Assembly (NCBI GenBank): GCA_017456895.1
Contig: JAFTIN010000045.1
Coordinates: 1-41,859 of the forward strand
Direction of reading: 5' to 3'
DNA: 41,859 bases
Source of the DNA: Clostridia bacterium
GTDB taxonomy: Bacteria > Bacillota > Clostridia > Oscillospirales > CAG-272
Shown here: positions 3,319 to 41,859 of the stretch, piece after piece
How the letters are laid out: each line of letters starts with the position of its first letter
How positions within the stretch are numbered: the stretch's first letter is position 1
Made by a program: the position numbers and the translations under genes
The notes under the pieces: model-generated
Told to the model about the DNA's origin: nothing
The model's database searches: none
What the model saw: the letters and a program-made list of their open reading frames with translations, nothing else

Positions 3319-4161
3319 ATGAAAGGCTTACTTGAAATATTAAAGATTATCTTAATCGGTATAGTCGAGGGCATAACAGAGTGGCTTCCTATCAGCTCGA
3401 CCGGGCATATGATACTCCTTGACGAGCTTGTCAGACTTAGATTCTCTGATGAATTTTTGGAGATGTTCCTTGTTGTTATTCAGCTCGGAGCTATACTTGC
3501 AGTTCCCGTAATGTTTTGGAGGAGATTATCTCCCTTTGGCTATAAGAATAGGCCGGAGGAGAGGAAGAGGATACTCGATCTGTGGCTTAAGGTTATAGTT
3601 GGTGTGATACCTGCCGCAGTGCTTGGATTCTTGCTTGACGACCTGCTTGATGAGTATCTCTACAACTACGTTGTAGTTGCCATCGCTCTTATCGTTTACG
3701 GTATTGCGTTCATTGTAGTAGAGAGGGTTAAGAAGGATAAGAAATACCGTATAGAGAACGTTTATGATATATCCTACAAGGATGCGTTTATTATCGGCGC
3801 CTACCAGTTCCTCTCTCTTATTCCCGGTACCTCTCGCTCCGGATCCACTATTCTTGGCGGTATGCTCACCGGCGTATCCCGTACAGCGTCCGCTGAGTTT
3901 TCCTTCTACCTTGCGATCCCGGTTATGCTCGGTGCATCGCTCCTTAAGGTGCTTAAATTCATTTTAGCGGGCTTTACCGTGACCTTAATAGAGCTTCTTT
4001 TGCTCTTCATTGGAATATTGGTTTCCTTTATCGTCTCGGTATTCGTAATAGACTTCCTTATGAGCTTTGTAAAGAAGCACAGCTTCAGCGCCTTCGGTAT
4101 ATACAGAATAGCCCTCGGCGTCATAGTTGTCGCATTCTTCCTCATAAAAACCTACGCGTAA
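3319..4161 (+). CDS. uppP: Undecaprenyl-diphosphate phosphatase (BacA/UppP)
   Basis: Integral membrane enzyme that dephosphorylates undecaprenyl pyrophosphate to recycle the lipid carrier for peptidoglycan and other wall polymers; its loss or excess affects bacitracin sensitivity. The 280-residue length is normal. Both catalytic motifs are present: the (E/Q)xxxE block GIVEGITEWLPISSTGH (Glu17, Glu21) and PGTSRSGS at 169-176 with the essential Arg174. About seven or eight hydrophobic helices are evident. GGAGG sits seven bases before the ATG. It ends in a strong terminator shared with the convergent BspA-like gene. Confidence 0.96.
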   Translation: MKGLLEILKIILIGIVEGITEWLPISSTGHMILLDELVRLRFSDEFLEMFLVVIQLGAILAVPVMFWRRLSPFGYKNRPEERKRILDLWLKVIVGVIPAAVLGFLLDDLLDEYLYNYVVVAIALIVYGIAFIVVERVKKDKKYRIENVYDISYKDAFIIGAYQFLSLIPGTSRSGSTILGGMLTGVSRTASAEFSFYLAIPVMLGASLLKVLKFILAGFTVTLIELLLLFIGILVSFIVSVFVIDFLMSFVKKHSFSAFGIYRIALGVIVVAFFLIKTYA

Positions 4162-4166
4162 TATAA

Positions 4167-4200
4167 AAAAAGACAGAGAACTCTGATTCTCTGTCTTTTT
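4167..4200. terminator. Bidirectional intrinsic terminator, uppP / BspA-like gene
   Basis: Perfect 14-bp stem AAAAAGACAGAGAA with its complement around a 6-base loop. There are A and T runs on both sides, so it works for both convergent genes. Confidence 0.92.
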
Positions 4201-4206
4201 ACTTTG

Positions 4207-6255
4207 TTACTGTTTTGTCTGACCGAAAAGCACGGTGCAGAATCCTGTTCCGCTTATATTTCCGGAGCAAAAATTCCAGTATCCCTCGAAGCCCTCGGGG
4301 AGTTCCTCGGCCTCGCAGTATATGGTAAGTGCCTTACAGTCGATAAATGCCCATAGAGCGATATGCTCAACAGAGCGGGGAATAAAGATGCCTTCGAGTG
4401 AGGCGCAGTTTGCAAACGCCTCACGGCCAATGCTTGTCAAAGCGTTGTCTATCTCGATAGATGTAAGCGCGGTACAACCGTTAAAGGCATATTCGCCGAG
4501 CGACTTGACGCTATTGCCGAGAATGACGTTTTCAAGGCTAGAGCAATAACGGAACGTACTGTCATTGATCCTTTCTACCGAGTCGGGTATGGTGATGCTC
4601 GTGAGCCCCTTGCAGAATTCAAATGCGCTGTGACCTATATTTTTAAGACCGCTTCCGAAGGTAATGGAGGATAAGGAGTCACAGTAATGGAATGCAGATG
4701 CTCCGATCGTGACCACGCTATCGGGGATAATGACCTCGGCAAGGCTTCTGCATAGCGAGAATGCCGTAGAGCATATGATCCTCGTGCCCTCTTGTATCTG
4801 ACATGAGGTCATTTCCTTATCGGAGGCTTCGAGAAGCAAATAATAAGGATTTTTCTCATCACCGAAGTATTTGCATCCGTTAAGCACGGTGAAGGAGAGA
4901 CTGTTGCAGCAATCGAATACTCCTCCGTCAACCTCAACGAGAGTAGAGGGGATAATGACACTCGACAGATTTGAGCAATAGTAGAATGCGCTGCCGCCTA
5001 AAGCTACTACGCCCTCGGGAATAACGATGCTTGTAAGATTAGAACAATTGCTGAATGCCCTTGCGGATATCTGCTTGACTCCTGTGCCGATCTCTACGTT
5101 CTTGAGTCCTTGGCAATAGAGAAACGCGGAGTATGGTATAACCTCAAGCGTGCCGGGTATCCTTATCTCGGAGAGACTGTCACAGTCATAGAAAGCCTCT
5201 TCTCCAAGATTTAGGAGCCCGTCGGGGAGGACAACTCCGTCTAGTGCCTTGCAGCCACTGAAGGCCTGATATTTGATATCGGTAACACCGTTCGGGATAC
5301 ATATGCGCTCAAGCGACTCACAGCCGCGGAAGGTCATATCCTCAATAACCGTGATACCGCTCGGGAGAGCGAGCTCGGTGAGCTTTTTGCAGGACTCGAA
5401 TGCCGCAGTACCAATGCTTGTTACACTATTTGGAATACTGATTTGTGAGAGGGAGTGGCATCCGAAGAAGGCAAAGCTGCCGATCTCGGTCAAATTCTCG
5501 GACAGATTAACGTTTTCGAGCCTTTTACAGTCTTGGAAGGCGAACTGCCCTATGGACGTTACCGTCTCGGGGAGCGTTACCGACGTTAGACTCTGACAGC
5601 CACTGAACGCCGATTCGCTAAGTGTATCTATTTTTGCCTTTAATACTGCCTTCTCGAGGTTTTCGCAGTCAGAGAAGGCTCCGGGTTCAATGTTGGTTAC
5701 GCTCTCTGGTACGTGAATGCTCTTGATAATGTTGCCTTGAGCGTTAAAACCGCTGAAGGCAGAGTAGCGTATACTGGTTACGGGTACACCCTCGTATTCC
5801 GATGCGATGATAACGTGAGGATCGGTACCCTCGTAGCCGATCACTTCCGCGTGCTTTTTATCCGTCGAGACAGCATACTTTATTCCTTTGGTAGGGCCGA
5901 GCTCTGCAGAACAAACGGCGCAAAGACCGGTGTCCGAGCTTGTGTGTGGAGCGATCGGAATCCCTTCTTCTTCCTTTGCGCCACAGCTGCAGATTCTTTC
6001 CCTGAGTCCCTCTGCAAGGCAGGTCGCTTCATTCAGGACCGTCCACTCGCCGTACGCATGGGCGCCGGACTGTATAACCGAGGTTTCCTTTTCACCACAG
6101 CTACAGAGCCTTTCCTTGACTCCCTCCTCGGTGCAGGTCGCCTCCTTCAGCACCGACCACTCACCGTATTCGTGAGTGTGATTTTTGCATGAGGAAAATA
6201 CGACGGTAATAACTGCTACCATCATTAAAAACATAAGTAAAGTTGTCTTTTTCAT
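4207..6255 (-). CDS. BspA-like leucine-rich-repeat surface lipoprotein
   Basis: 682 residues. The N-terminus is a lipoprotein signal: positive MKKT, a hydrophobic core, lipobox VFSSC with Cys23 as lipid site. Residues about 26-100 hold two copies of a Cys-rich unit (YGEW-V-L-EATC--EG--ER-CSCG-KE), each with CxCG, a module common on clostridial surface proteins. Residues about 150-650 are BspA-type LRR_5 repeats of roughly 23 residues (I-x-x-x-A-F-x-x-C-x-x-L-x-x-I-x-I-P-x-x-V), about 20 copies. Such proteins sit outside the cell and in some species bind host or bacterial ligands; the ligand here is unknown. It is monocistronic, with its own strong promoter and a shared terminator. Confidence 0.9.
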   Translation of the reverse strand: MKKTTLLMFLMMVAVITVVFSSCKNHTHEYGEWSVLKEATCTEEGVKERLCSCGEKETSVIQSGAHAYGEWTVLNEATCLAEGLRERICSCGAKEEEGIPIAPHTSSDTGLCAVCSAELGPTKGIKYAVSTDKKHAEVIGYEGTDPHVIIASEYEGVPVTSIRYSAFSGFNAQGNIIKSIHVPESVTNIEPGAFSDCENLEKAVLKAKIDTLSESAFSGCQSLTSVTLPETVTSIGQFAFQDCKRLENVNLSENLTEIGSFAFFGCHSLSQISIPNSVTSIGTAAFESCKKLTELALPSGITVIEDMTFRGCESLERICIPNGVTDIKYQAFSGCKALDGVVLPDGLLNLGEEAFYDCDSLSEIRIPGTLEVIPYSAFLYCQGLKNVEIGTGVKQISARAFSNCSNLTSIVIPEGVVALGGSAFYYCSNLSSVIIPSTLVEVDGGVFDCCNSLSFTVLNGCKYFGDEKNPYYLLLEASDKEMTSCQIQEGTRIICSTAFSLCRSLAEVIIPDSVVTIGASAFHYCDSLSSITFGSGLKNIGHSAFEFCKGLTSITIPDSVERINDSTFRYCSSLENVILGNSVKSLGEYAFNGCTALTSIEIDNALTSIGREAFANCASLEGIFIPRSVEHIALWAFIDCKALTIYCEAEELPEGFEGYWNFCSGNISGTGFCTVLFGQTKQ

Positions 6256-14266: not shown

Positions 14267-14569
14267 CGGTGCGTCGGGTGGAGTCATACCAGCCGGGGTG
14301 GTAGCGGTACCTTGTACCTGAAATCCGCTATAGCAGGGGTTCATTCCCATCCGGAGGGCTCGTCCTGTGTAGTCTGCACCGTCATTTTCTATGTTGAAGA
14401 ATGGGTCTTGCGCAACGCGAGGCCGTGAACCATGTCAGGTGGGGAACCAAGCAGCATTAAGCGGTTTATCGGGTGTGCCGCGAGGCAGCCTGTTCGGAGT
14501 AGAGGTGGCGGTTACCGTATGTAGGGGGATTTTCGAAGTTTGGGTGTATGGCTCTTTCCGACGCATCGA
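14267..14569 (+). ncRNA. ffs: Signal recognition particle RNA, long Alu-containing type
   Basis: The universal domain IV is visible around 14430-14460: GTCAGGTGGGGAACCAAGCAGC, with the apical GGAA tetraloop and the asymmetric loop that binds Ffh. The 5' part holds the Alu-like domain found in Bacillus/Clostridium SRP RNAs (GCCGGGGTGGTAGCGGTACC and ATCCGCTATAGCAGGGG). The two ends pair: GGTGCGTCGG at 14268-14277 with CCGACGCATC at 14558-14567, fixing the mature length near 300 bases. It lies immediately upstream of dnaX, the common position in Firmicutes. Exact ends depend on RNase processing. Confidence 0.95.
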
Positions 14570-38595: not shown

Positions 38596-38604
38596 TTTCG
38601 TTTT

Positions 38605-38785
38605 TTCTCCTGCGGAGTTCGTGATATTGTGATATTTGGACCGACACACTTACGAAGGGAGTCTGGACTTCTTTTTTCGGGATGCAGGCCTCCTGTATGG
38701 GACTGTTACTTGTAACCTCCCTGTCACAGACGTTGGAAGCGCAATGAAAAAGAGAGGACACCCACCTGGTCATACCGGGTTAAAA
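38605..38785 (+). ncRNA. ssrS: Probable 6S RNA (SsrS)
   Basis: This non-coding stretch has the wording and shape of clostridial 6S RNA, which mimics an open promoter and sequesters the sigma-A holoenzyme. ATTG (38626-38629) pairs with CAAT (38742-38745). CCGAC (38641-38645) pairs with GTTGG (38732-38736) and GGGAG pairs with CTCCC across a large asymmetric internal bubble. An apical ATGCAGG/CCTGTAT hairpin caps it. The 3' part AGGACACCCACCTGG is typical of the Firmicutes RNAs. Ends are approximate. Identification is from memory of the family and the fold. Confidence 0.75.
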
Positions 38786-38812
38786 ATTGCCTTACACGGC
38801 TCTCGCGGGTAT

Positions 38813-38844
38813 TTTAGCGCGTTATCTTCGGATAGCGCGCTAAA
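38813..38844 (+). terminator. Stem-loop after the 6S RNA
   Basis: A 14-bp stem TTTAGCGCGTTATC with its near-complement (one G-U) and a TTCG loop, followed by TTATTTTAGATTTTA. It is a likely terminator of the 6S transcript. Confidence 0.8.
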
Positions 38845-38952: not shown

Positions 38953-41535
38953 ATGTTCGATAAAATAAATGGGCTTACCGACAAGGAGGTTTCAGCCTCA
39001 CGTGAAAAATACGGTACCAACGCTCTTGTTCGAATAAAAGGAAAAGGGATTATGAGGCGCTTTTTTGAGAACCTCTCGGATCCAATAATAAGGATACTTA
39101 TTGCAGCCCTCGCTCTTGAGGTTATTTTTACCTTCGGTAACTGCAATCTGATCGAGGTCTTCGGCATTCTCGCCGCAATTATTATTGCCACCACCGTTTC
39201 CACCTTGTCTGAGTATGGAAGTGAGCGTGCTTTTGCGCGCATAGAGGCCGAGAGCCTTGAAAGTAACGCGTACGCCATACGTTCGGGGCGTGAATGTTTA
39301 ATAAGCTCCGATGATGTCGTTGTTGGAGATGTTCTGCGACTTAAAAGCGGAGAAAAGGTACACGCTGACGGAAAAATAATCCGCGGCGAGGTCTTGGTAG
39401 ACCAGTCTGCCCTCAATGGAGAGAATATCGAGACGAGAAAATGGACTTCTCAAAGAGGTGACGGCTCTTTGGCGGATCCGGGCTCAGTATTTCGCGGCTC
39501 TTTGGTCGTAGATGGTGAAGCACTGATGAAGGTCGAAAAAGTAGGTCCGTCTACATACTACGGGCGTCTCGCCCTCGACGTGCAGAGTGAAACGCGTGAG
39601 AGTCCGCTTAAGCTCCGTCTATCACGCCTTGCAGGGCAGATCAGTATTATCGGCTACGTCATAGCCTTCCTCGTCGGATTGACTTATCTGTTTAACTTTT
39701 TTGTCGTTGACTCGGGCTTTGTTCCGTGGCGCATCATGGAGGCGCTGTCTGATACGAAATATTTGCTCACACATCTTCTTCGCGCCTTAACTCTGATGAT
39801 AACCGTCGTTGTTGTCGCCGTCCCCGAGGGATTGCCAATGATGATTACCGTGGTCCTGTCTGCAAATATGAAAAGAATGCTAAGAGACAACGTCCTTGTA
39901 AAAAAACTTGTTGGTATAGAGACTGCAGGTTCACTTAATATACTTTTCACAGATAAGACAGGCACTCTTACGACGGGAAAGCTCTCTGTAGATAGGATAG
40001 TTATTGAATCGGGAAGCTTTAAAAGTGTTCGTGCACTTAAGACCTTTCCGACGATATTTGATCAGATCCTCCTTGCCGTCAAGCTTAATACCGACTGCAC
40101 CGACTCGGGCGGTGAGATCATTGGTGGTAATTCTACCGATCGCGCCATATACGAGTTCTTTATTAATGATAGTTTAGCTTTGCCGACCGTTATATCTAAA
40201 ATACCGTTTAAAAGCGAAAACAAGTATTCCTCCGTTACGCTTAAAGACGGTACCGTCTATCTTAAAGGTGCACCGGAAAGCATACTTTCAAAATGCTCGC
40301 TCACACTCGGTGAGAATGGCGAGCCGTATGCTTCGGATCTGTCGTTGGTGCGTAGAGAATATGATGAGGCAGTATCAAAGGGAGAGAGAGTAATAGCTAT
40401 AGCGTCAAGTCACGTAGATCACCCGGATAGATTGTGTCTTGTTGCTCTGGTAATCTTAAAGGATAAGCTGCGTGCCGGAGTGAGAGAGTCTGTAAAGAGT
40501 GTTATGAGTGCGGGCGTACAAATAGTTATGCTCACAGGTGATAATCGCGACACAGCGGTAAGTATTGCCGAAGAGTGTGGATTTTTTAGGAAAAACAGCT
40601 CTAATATCGCATTGACATCTGCAGAGCTTGCTGCTCTTACCGACGGAGAATTGATGAAGGTATTGCCGAATTTACGAGTCGTTGCACGTGCTCTGCCCGA
40701 GGATAAAGTTCGACTTGTTGATATTTCTGCGAAGTGTAATCTTGTAGTGGGAATGACAGGCGATGGAATTAACGACGCTCCTTCACTTAAGAAGGCGGAT
40801 GTTGGTTTCGCTATGGGCAGTGGAACCGATATTGCTAAGAGTGCCGCGGACATCGTTATTTTGGACGATAGTTTTGAGGCTATTTCCAAAACGATCTTAT
40901 ACGGTCGAACGATCTTTAAATCTATACGCAAGTTCATCACCTTCCAGCTTATTATGAACCTTGCTGCTTGTGGTATAACCCTCATCGGACCGTATATCGG
41001 CATTGATACTCCTATAACGATAATCCAGATGCTCTGGGTGAACATTATAATGGACACTCTTGGCGGCCTGGCTTTTGCAGGAGAGGCTCCGTTGTCCTAC
41101 TATATGCTCGAGAAGCCCAAGCGTAGGGAAGAGCCGATACTCTCACACACCATGCTCCTTCACGTTATCCTTAACGGTGCATATACCCTTGGCTTGCTCG
41201 TCCTTTTTCTCAGCTTCATGCCATTCCGTATCTTATTTGGATCACCCGAAAAGCATCTGAGCGCCTTTTATGCCTTGTTTATTTTTTCGGGTATTGTCAA
41301 CTCCTTTACCGCCAGGAGCGAGAGGATTTTCATATTCTTTGGCCTACTAAAAAACCGCGCTTTTCTCTTTATAATGGCATTTATCACTGCGATACAGGTG
41401 TTGATAGTCTATTTCGGTGGATCCTTGTTCAGGAGCTTTCCTTTGTCCCTCAGAGAGATTGGTATCGTGATCCTATTATCACTTACCGTTTTTCTGTTTG
41501 ACGGAGTCAGAAGGATATTTCAAAAATTAAAATAG
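38953..41535 (+). CDS. Calcium-transporting P-type ATPase (PMCA-like, type IIB)
   Basis: 860 residues from the ATG at 38953, where AAAGGAAGGGAAG is the ribosome binding site; the longer frame starts inside the terminator. The membrane pump has the phosphorylation motif DKTGTLT with Asp334, TGDGINDAPSLKKADVGFAMG in the P domain, KGAPE in the N domain, and membrane helix 4 VVAVPEGLP at 287-295, the PMCA/SERCA calcium-site wording. The helix 6 pair is LWVNIIMDTLGGLA. The actuator loop reads NGEN at 155-158 instead of TGES, keeping the catalytic Glu. It probably exports Ca2+. The gene is monocistronic and ends in a strong terminator. Confidence 0.93.
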   Translation: MFDKINGLTDKEVSASREKYGTNALVRIKGKGIMRRFFENLSDPIIRILIAALALEVIFTFGNCNLIEVFGILAAIIIATTVSTLSEYGSERAFARIEAESLESNAYAIRSGRECLISSDDVVVGDVLRLKSGEKVHADGKIIRGEVLVDQSALNGENIETRKWTSQRGDGSLADPGSVFRGSLVVDGEALMKVEKVGPSTYYGRLALDVQSETRESPLKLRLSRLAGQISIIGYVIAFLVGLTYLFNFFVVDSGFVPWRIMEALSDTKYLLTHLLRALTLMITVVVVAVPEGLPMMITVVLSANMKRMLRDNVLVKKLVGIETAGSLNILFTDKTGTLTTGKLSVDRIVIESGSFKSVRALKTFPTIFDQILLAVKLNTDCTDSGGEIIGGNSTDRAIYEFFINDSLALPTVISKIPFKSENKYSSVTLKDGTVYLKGAPESILSKCSLTLGENGEPYASDLSLVRREYDEAVSKGERVIAIASSHVDHPDRLCLVALVILKDKLRAGVRESVKSVMSAGVQIVMLTGDNRDTAVSIAEECGFFRKNSSNIALTSAELAALTDGELMKVLPNLRVVARALPEDKVRLVDISAKCNLVVGMTGDGINDAPSLKKADVGFAMGSGTDIAKSAADIVILDDSFEAISKTILYGRTIFKSIRKFITFQLIMNLAACGITLIGPYIGIDTPITIIQMLWVNIIMDTLGGLAFAGEAPLSYYMLEKPKRREEPILSHTMLLHVILNGAYTLGLLVLFLSFMPFRILFGSPEKHLSAFYALFIFSGIVNSFTARSERIFIFFGLLKNRAFLFIMAFITAIQVLIVYFGGSLFRSFPLSLREIGIVILLSLTVFLFDGVRRIFQKLK

Positions 41536-41541
41536 AAAAAC

Positions 41542-41573
41542 AAAAACCGACAAGTATAAACTTGTCGGTTTTT
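41542..41573 (+). terminator. Intrinsic terminator of the P-type ATPase gene
   Basis: Perfect 13-bp stem AAAAACCGACAAG with its complement and a 6-base loop, ending in TTTTT. Its last base abuts the first tRNA-end repeat. Confidence 0.92.
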
Positions 41574-41592
41574 GGAGCTGGAAATGGGATTT
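41573..41592 (-). repeat. Direct repeat of a tRNA 3' end, copy 1
   Basis: TGGAGCTGGAAATGGGATTT, identical over 20 bases to 41838-41857. Read on the minus strand it is the half T-loop, T stem, acceptor strand and CCA of a tRNA. After it the sequence leaves the tRNA pattern within the T loop and turns into hairpins. Confidence 0.85.
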
Positions 41593-41689
41593 CCGCCCGT
41601 GGCGGCCTTAGCCGACAAACAGTCCACCGGACTGTTTGGTCCTTCGGACAAATTGCTGTGCAATTTTCTCCCTATTTCAAATCCCATTT
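41582..41689. repeat. Inverted-repeat-bounded element of tandem three-base-loop hairpins
   Basis: AAATGGGATTT (41582-41592) and AAATCCCATTT (41679-41689) are perfect 11-bp inverted repeats. Between them lie perfect hairpins back to back: CCGCC-cgt-GGCGG (41593-41605), AAACAGTCC-acc-GGACTGTTT (41617-41637), GTCC-ttc-GGAC (41639-41649) and AAATTGC-tgt-GCAATTT (41650-41666). All have three-base loops. No ORF with recognisable content crosses it. Confidence 0.8.
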
Positions 41690-41701
41690 TATCATGCAAA
41701 A

Positions 41702-41724
41702 GGATTTGAACCCACGACCTATTG
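41702..41724 (-). repeat. tRNA T-arm-like fragment
   Basis: On the minus strand CAATAGGTCGTGGGTTCAAA followed by TCC looks like the variable loop and T arm of a tRNA; it is the part that would sit just 5' of the 3'-end repeats. It is followed not by the acceptor strand but by unrelated sequence. Confidence 0.6.
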
Positions 41725-41729
41725 CAACA

Positions 41730-41746
41730 TTGGTGCAAAGCACCAA
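41730..41746. repeat. Hairpin TTGGTGC-aaa-GCACCAA
   Basis: A perfect 7-bp stem with a three-base loop, of the same design as the hairpins at 41593-41666. Confidence 0.75.
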
Positions 41747-41747
41747 A

Positions 41748-41785
41748 TTACGAATCGTATGATGAAGTCATACATGATTTCGTAA
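41748..41785. repeat. Long bulged hairpin containing an anticodon-arm-like sequence
   Basis: TTACG, AATC and GTATGA pair with TCATAC, GATT and CGTAA around TGAAG, with two small bulges. Read on the minus strand the left arm contains GATTCGTAAT, like the anticodon arm of tRNA-Thr(CGT). Confidence 0.6.
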
Positions 41786-41788
41786 GAA

Positions 41789-41828
41789 AAGGTCCGTGGG
41801 GTACAAAGAAAAAGACCTCACGAACCTT
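41789..41828 (-). terminator. Stem-loop 3' of the partial tRNA, possible terminator
   Basis: A 14-bp stem with one mismatch, AAGGTTCGTGAGGT against ACCCCACGGACCTT on the minus strand, followed by TTTTC. It lies just after the 3' end of the tRNA at the window edge. Confidence 0.5.
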
Positions 41829-41837
41829 AAAATACGA

Positions 41838-41859
41838 TGGAGCTGGAAATGGGATTTGA
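41838..41859 (-). tRNA. 3' end of a tRNA gene cut by the window edge
   Basis: The minus strand reads TCAAATCCCATTTCCAGCTCCA at the edge: T-loop remainder, T-stem strand CCCAT, acceptor strand TTCCAGC, discriminator T and CCA. The rest of the gene lies beyond the window, so identity is open; neighbouring fragments hint at tRNA-Thr. Confidence 0.55.

Follow-up and report, generated by a model that had tools for sequence, protein, structure and literature searches.

REP and BIME sequences are short, dispersed palindromic hairpins, non-coding and non-autonomous, which are associated with the RAYT (Y1) transposase; REP palindromes have a conserved foot tetranucleotide. MITEs are also short and free of open reading frames, and they have terminal inverted repeats together with direct repeats at the point of insertion. 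Here we compare with these systems a hairpin-rich sequence lying beside a bacterial tRNA gene, which probably represents one copy of a small, non-autonomous and palindromic mobile element whose insertion sites are the 3′ ends of tRNA genes.

The stretch of DNA analysed (the window) comprises 41,859 nt from a Clostridia bacterium (GCA_017456895.1, contig JAFTIN010000045.1; lineage Oscillospirales; CAG-272), the genome of which (G000) is 64.75% complete. G000 is also one of the 69 genomes in our sample of the genus. The last 133 bases of the window (41727-41859) are exactly the first 133 of a second contig, C51, and the contig break falls inside the repeat. The original prediction had placed a series of hairpins next to a tRNA gene. 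This holds to the extent that the window contains the 3′ end of a tRNA-Thr(CGT); the gene is incomplete there and whole on C51, as called by ARAGORN. The features of the locus are these:

41541-41574, no strand: intrinsic-terminator-like hairpin with 15-bp arms and a 4-nt loop, with the P-type ATPase gene on one side and the distal tRNA 3′-end copy on the other
41573-41592, minus strand: distal direct copy of the tRNA-Thr(CGT) 3′ end, from T-loop to CCA, 20 bp identical to 41838-41857
41586-41685, minus strand: hairpin element type 1, about 100 nt, with ends GGGATTT...AAATCCC
41593-41605, no strand: hairpin, 5 bp, loop CGT; one pair is altered on both sides in genome G022
41616-41638, no strand: hairpin, 10 bp, loop ACC; matches of 20-26 bp to this hairpin are found at other places in the genus
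41639-41649, no strand: hairpin, 4 bp, loop TTC; both sides are altered in genome G014 (GTGC/GCAC in sense)
41650-41666, no strand: hairpin, 7 bp, loop TGT
41677-41689, minus strand: inverted copy of the tRNA-Thr T-arm/acceptor 3′ strand, forming the closing arm of the element; exact 13-bp inverted repeat with 41847-41859
41691-41777 (up to 41785), minus strand: type 2 unit, degenerate sequence resembling tRNA-Thr, in which hairpins flank the anticodon-loop sequence
41730-41746, no strand: hairpin, 7 bp, loop AAA, within the type 2 unit
41748-41785, no strand: hairpin with outer stem 41748-41754/41779-41785 and inner stem 41757-41762/41768-41773
41789-41828, minus strand: terminator-like hairpin directly downstream of the functional tRNA-Thr (from RNA folding and reading)
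41838-41859, minus strand: 3′ end of the functional tRNA-Thr(CGT), which continues on C51 (L002:112-186, minus strand)

Elsewhere the window encodes two ordinary RNAs, the large bacterial SRP RNA (14284-14551) and 6S RNA (38604-38815).

The hairpin array is real and beyond chance. An 11-bp inverted repeat (41582-41592/41679-41689, plus-strand coordinates) encloses four perfect triloop hairpins, and these, like the additional one at 41730-41746, are present where they had been predicted. Between 41582 and 41689, perfect triloop hairpins (non-overlapping, with stems of at least 4 bp) contribute 34 bp in six hairpins, a sum that none of 5000 dinucleotide shuffles reached, the best of them giving 19. 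Furthermore, when the whole window was scanned in steps of 9, the 12 best 108-bp stretches listed all overlapped the array. Taken as RNA, the minus strand of 41573-41859 folds with z = -7.16 relative to 200 shuffles. The prediction that the array is neither a terminator nor a CRISPR array was borne out: the hairpins follow directly on one another and lack U-runs, the terminator-like hairpins to either side of the insert are separate from them, and 41400-41859 contains no identical direct repeats with unique spacers. Its framing of the unit requires revision, as the natural unit is the minus strand of 41586-41685 plus a 20-bp direct repeat that had gone unreported. The prediction also missed the inverted arms specific to each tRNA, which together with this repeat of the tRNA 3′ end are the most telling features.

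The direct repeat has a counterpart in an empty site. The window runs from the 41541-41574 terminator, which by its position would be the older one of the locus, to one copy of the tRNA 3′ end and, 245 bp further on, to another, that of the functional tRNA; the closing arm (41677-41689) pairs over 11 bp with 41582-41592. An empty site, proposed in the original prediction as something to look for, was found in the congener G014 (L068), where the P-type ATPase gene, a terminator, tRNA-Thr and ksgA are accompanied by one tRNA 3′ end. By eye, the terminator in G014 resembles that at 41541-41574 and occupies the same place. Since the window has two 3′ ends and the empty site one, 265 bp have been added at the T-loop end of tRNA-Thr.

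At the 28 of 30 loci (L067-L095) that hold both genes, tRNA-Thr(CGT) and ksgA are divergent in 14 and co-directional in 14; where ksgA adjoins, every type 2 hairpin unit seen accompanies a divergent tRNA-Thr. Locus L070 (G026:C41) has one tRNA-Thr amid two diverged ksgA and two P-type ATPase pieces, and may be a chimeric contig.

The type 1 element is not a solitary sequence without relatives, an outcome that would have told against the prediction. A sequence search followed by a covariance model identified eight copies in 7 of the 69 genus genomes, its own included, the others sharing 87-95% identity with that of the window. For the adjoining tRNA, ARAGORN gives Thr-CGT in the window and C51, Leu-CAG in G022 and Pro-GGG in G039, the last of which carries two tandem copies; in G014, G015, G018 and G011 the copies have Leu-like 3′ ends next to them, judged by eye. 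The 8-kb locus around the G011 element contains no called tRNA, and the element in G018 and G015 is preceded by what appears, by eye, to be degenerate tRNA-like sequence. In the G015 locus L063 (reverse complement, about 3959-4250) we noted, again by eye, a degenerate tRNA-Leu-like sequence with hairpin-rich insertions. Several stem pairs vary on both sides among the copies, in agreement with the expectation of covarying stems in a recurring non-coding element, and the type 1 stems hold 242 Watson-Crick pairs, three G-U pairs and three mismatches. Among the eight copies loop lengths vary by 1-2 nt and one hairpin varies by 2 nt, so no reading frame is kept and a protein-coding reading was rejected. 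A tmRNA was likewise rejected as the source of the tRNA-like 3′ end: the genome's tmRNA lies elsewhere and ARAGORN calls tRNA-Thr(CGT).

The element does not correspond to a described RNA family either, since no Rfam family scored at or above its gathering threshold for the window's array and L002. An exact pattern scan of GTDB genomes returned 18 loci. Six of these (L054, L057, L059, L060, L061 and L063, from Clostridia MAGs of sheep, goat and roe deer gut according to record titles) hold seven strong model matches; the other 12 hold none, the best scoring 14.6 bits (L065). A one-mismatch match in another genus (L046; 3 of 295 sampled family genomes matched) received no model score. Searches with 41573-41859 gave no match in 50,697 phage or 72,556 plasmid records, and an IMG/VR scan with two exact patterns gave none. 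An origin from a phage or plasmid was rejected on this evidence. A 3-kb query containing a related unit matched 249 phage records, of which the 20 listed all matched the tRNA-Leu part only.

In the window the type 2 unit adjoins the type 1 element, making this a compound insertion. Against the Rfam tRNA model 41691-41777 scores 16.9 bits (gathering 29; E 0.72). It is 82% identical over 91 nt to copies in G026 (L019), and similar units lie behind tRNA-Thr in G036 and G005 (tandem), G031, G018 and G012. Pseudo-tRNA-Thr units in which varying hairpin stems flank anticodon-loop sequence occur at L071, L081, L085, L088, L033 and L019, several of them in tandem and with a terminator of their own.

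By its architecture the type 1 element resembles a wider family of units behind tRNA genes of many types, arranged as tRNA, terminator, inverted T-arm, hairpin core and a copy of that tRNA's 3′ end. From the loci fetched we collected 50 distinct units with a common core motif, 41 of which have a tRNA on the same strand less than 450 nt upstream. A copy of the host tRNA's 3′ end follows 27 of these 41 units, and the host's inverted T-arm (at most 1 mismatch in 10) immediately precedes the core in 29. In a set in which 37 of 136 tRNAs have a 3′ copy, and which is subject to selection bias, as is the 54-row set used below, because many loci were fetched for holding a unit, an inverted T-arm (positions 54-63, at most one mismatch) accompanies 19 of the 37; controls, in which each region was paired with other tRNAs' T-arms differing at three or more places, gave 0/506. 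A good inverted T-arm is absent in the other 18. A 15-nt inverted arm in all units was considered and dropped, only 5/37 having p <=0.02; the recurring part is the T-arm. For the 3′ copies themselves, the control with another isotype's tail matched in 72 of 2469 cases. A terminator-like stretch usually separates the tRNA from the unit, and at 16 of 54 tRNAs the forward duplication runs into the terminator (control 19/1938). Tandem units occur in the family, and related cores were also found where no tRNA was detected. The window copy shares this outer architecture and differs in its inner hairpins, which makes it a family variant by architecture, not by core sequence. A TGAAT...AGAGCC hairpin core appears within different outer stems in other palindromic repeats (L234, L236, L238 and L240).

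How common such units are varies between genomes. In less biased surveys of tRNAs, which drew on no more than 30 search loci in each genome, with a few added for G000 and 20 stretches for G539, a copy of the tRNA's own 3′ end (at most 2/18 mismatches, within 330 nt) was found for 6 of 26 tRNAs in G000, 1 of 31 in G018 and 0 of 48 in G539, the last two figures arguing against generality. With looser limits (at most 4/18 mismatches, within 900 nt) the counts were 6/26 in G000 and 3/24 in G018, where one empty and one antisense-only row are not counted as copies; the two G000 sets of six differ, one including Ser and the other Lys, and the window's tRNA-Thr falls outside G000's six because the contig ends. 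G539, a near-complete genome of another family, has a solo core about 60 nt behind one tRNA. When the G000 Leu-CAG unit (L124) was used as query, 42 of the 69 genus genomes matched, a figure that includes partial matches to the hairpin core alone, and a core match was found in 51 of 394 sampled genomes of the order. At 28 loci outside the genus the motif occurs 33 times, 17 of them with a tRNA close upstream (one unit, L267, being counted twice in both numbers). Among these, 11 distinct units in six families have both the 3′-end copy and the inverted T-arm (at most one mismatch), with Leu, Arg, Gln, Tyr, Ala, Glu and Ser tRNAs as hosts.

Near-identical cores stand behind different tRNAs, implying that the module moves. 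Two pairs of cores show 98% identity over 60 nt, one from the Leu-CAG unit of G000 and a Trp unit of G038, the other from a Val unit of G000 and an Asp unit of G014, and in each case the flanks are those of the unit's own host. Mean core identity is 0.86 between different tRNAs of the same genome (19 pairs), 0.83 between the same tRNA in other genomes (56 pairs) and 0.80 otherwise (742 pairs), so that clustering by tRNA or genome is weak, and some tRNA-Asp units look inherited. At seven of eight tRNA-Asp loci the 21-nt distal copy is exact and the spacers differ; the eighth is cut by the contig end. Such exactness could mean that these units are not parasites and instead serve a function where they stand or are homogenised.

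The composition of the stems bears on whether the hairpins are maintained as DNA or as RNA. A structured RNA might arise by read-through from the tRNA promoter, with an acceptor/T-arm-like helix, a large hairpin domain replacing the T-loop and a CCA end, and could serve as a tRNA mimic, decoy or processing signal. The invariant internal-loop letters of the core, the covarying stems, the strong folding of the minus strand and the exact distal 3′ ends behind tRNA-Asp all agree with this. RNA selection, however, tolerates G-U pairs far more than mismatches. Across the family the stems hold 939 Watson-Crick pairs, 6 G-U pairs and 28 mismatches. P1, the closing stem, had its partner selected for matching, and its G-U count is lower as a result; the other stems were placed by flanking motifs, and without P1 the figures are 716, 5 and 18. 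The reverse holds for 115 tRNAs of the same loci, with 758 Watson-Crick, 43 G-U and 4 mismatched pairs in acceptor stems and 489, 67 and 19 in T stems. Covariation is present and G-U depleted, as would fit the upkeep of palindromes as DNA, by template switching or by an enzyme that binds DNA hairpins. The case for upkeep at the DNA level over RNA selection is strong but not final, and the motif-based definition of the units may favour perfect stems. One published account (PMC8794818) describes template switching creating and fixing perfect stems in RNA genes, and another (PMC8040213) describes palindromic candidate RNAs, most of them possible terminators. The structured RNA also fits poorly with the terminator-like stretch that usually precedes the unit, with related cores away from any tRNA found, and with a unit that is present in some congeners, unmatched in others and switches tRNA host; we consider it rather unlikely. 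A non-autonomous mobile DNA element, one of the two options originally put forward, is favoured, the element being discrete, recurring and non-coding, with an existing empty site.

An insertion relative to an empty site, a direct repeat of the tRNA end, an inverted host arm in about half of the units, shared cores and near-perfect Watson-Crick stems were all observed. Insertion of a mobile element at the T-loop would leave the functional tRNA with one 3′ end and a terminator, followed by the inverted T-arm, the hairpin core, the second copy of the tRNA 3′ end and the older terminator. The hairpins would act as DNA, single-stranded or as a cruciform, and be recognised in trans by a recombinase or transposase, and the inverted arm and perfect stems may be made or repaired by template switching during DNA replication. 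In the mechanism that we consider likeliest, a trans-acting enzyme places the core at the T-arm, and the inverted arm is produced or repaired as copying proceeds across the hairpin. More tentatively, the family may represent a novel mobile-element class of gut Clostridia with the T-arm of nearly any tRNA gene as target, its arms being the host 3′ end copied forward and backward and rewritten for each target, perhaps by way of the tRNA transcript or snap-back DNA; the duplications that reach through the terminator in some copies would allow the tRNA transcript as template. The partner proposed originally, a transposase or recombinase recognising single-stranded hairpins, did not emerge: the 10 proteins around the element include no recombinase, transposase or integrase, and G000 has no match to the IS200-type Y1 transposase (PF01797), an absence that is uncertain given a genome 64.75% complete. 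Among the 69 genus genomes 14 encode a Y1 transposase, 11 of the 42 with a related-unit match and 3 of the 27 without, and we rejected it as partner because it is not clearly associated with the units.

The length of the duplicated stretch, which runs into the terminator in those 16 of 54 cases and exceeds the target duplications of ordinary transposons, is a point against a mobile element, and could suggest that nothing has transposed: the tRNA end and terminator would be duplicated in tandem, templates switched at hairpins and the hairpins spread by gene conversion. The inverted arms do resemble template-switch products, and tRNA-Thr lies in either orientation beside ksgA, but the core is conserved and recurs behind unrelated tRNAs across genomes and families, for which some means of transfer is required, and we regard such an origin as improbable. 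Alternatively, the locus could be an attL/attR-like scar of a large integrative element or phage using the tRNA end as its attachment site. T-loops of tRNAs are known attachment sites (PMC2647930), and the tRNA end is directly repeated here; given that the copies seen are short, with a common core and an inverted arm, and that phage and plasmid records hold no match to 41573-41859 and IMG/VR none to two exact patterns, this explanation has very little probability.

If a mobile element is indeed what we see, it would be a previously unnamed one in gut bacteria, inserting at the universal T-arm of tRNAs with ends that adapt to each target, and would account for some of the hairpin-rich sequence that follows the tRNA genes of these bacteria. 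It would also imply that covarying stems can arise from palindrome upkeep at the DNA level, a pitfall for the discovery of structured RNAs. We found no description of the element in the literature searched (open-licence PMC). Among known hairpin-rich RNAs, Gut-1 (RF01706) gave sub-threshold matches in the arrays L060, L114 and L120 (best 46.0 bits, gathering 50), but these lie outside the described units, in L120 with one between tRNA-Ser and the distal 3′ copy, and no match is listed in the window. Fourteen loci containing related units were also run against Rfam; among the families listed at E up to 0.5, tRNA alone scored at or above gathering.

Like REP and BIME sequences, the element consists of short, dispersed, palindromic non-coding hairpins; it differs from them in being tied to tRNA 3′ ends, in its host-tRNA-specific flanks, in its long duplication and in having no clear link to Y1. 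Core starts vary, some being GTAG and others GGGG or CAGAG. With MITEs it shares terminal inverted repeats, direct repeats at the insertion and the lack of an open reading frame, but its terminal repeats follow the host tRNA and not a parent transposon. In its T-loop/3′-end target, the functional tRNA that is kept and the duplicated 3′ end it is similar to tRNA-targeting integrative elements, which use a tyrosine integrase. Unlike them it spans only about 100-265 bp without genes, related cores serve many tRNA types, and it has an inverted arm; no integrase is encoded in the 265-bp insert or among the 10 neighbouring proteins. If mobile, the element would connect REP/MITE-like hairpins with tRNA-site integration: it resembles REPs and MITEs in form and tRNA-integrating elements in target, none of the enzymes that define these systems was found with it, and there is a real possibility that it forms a separate class.
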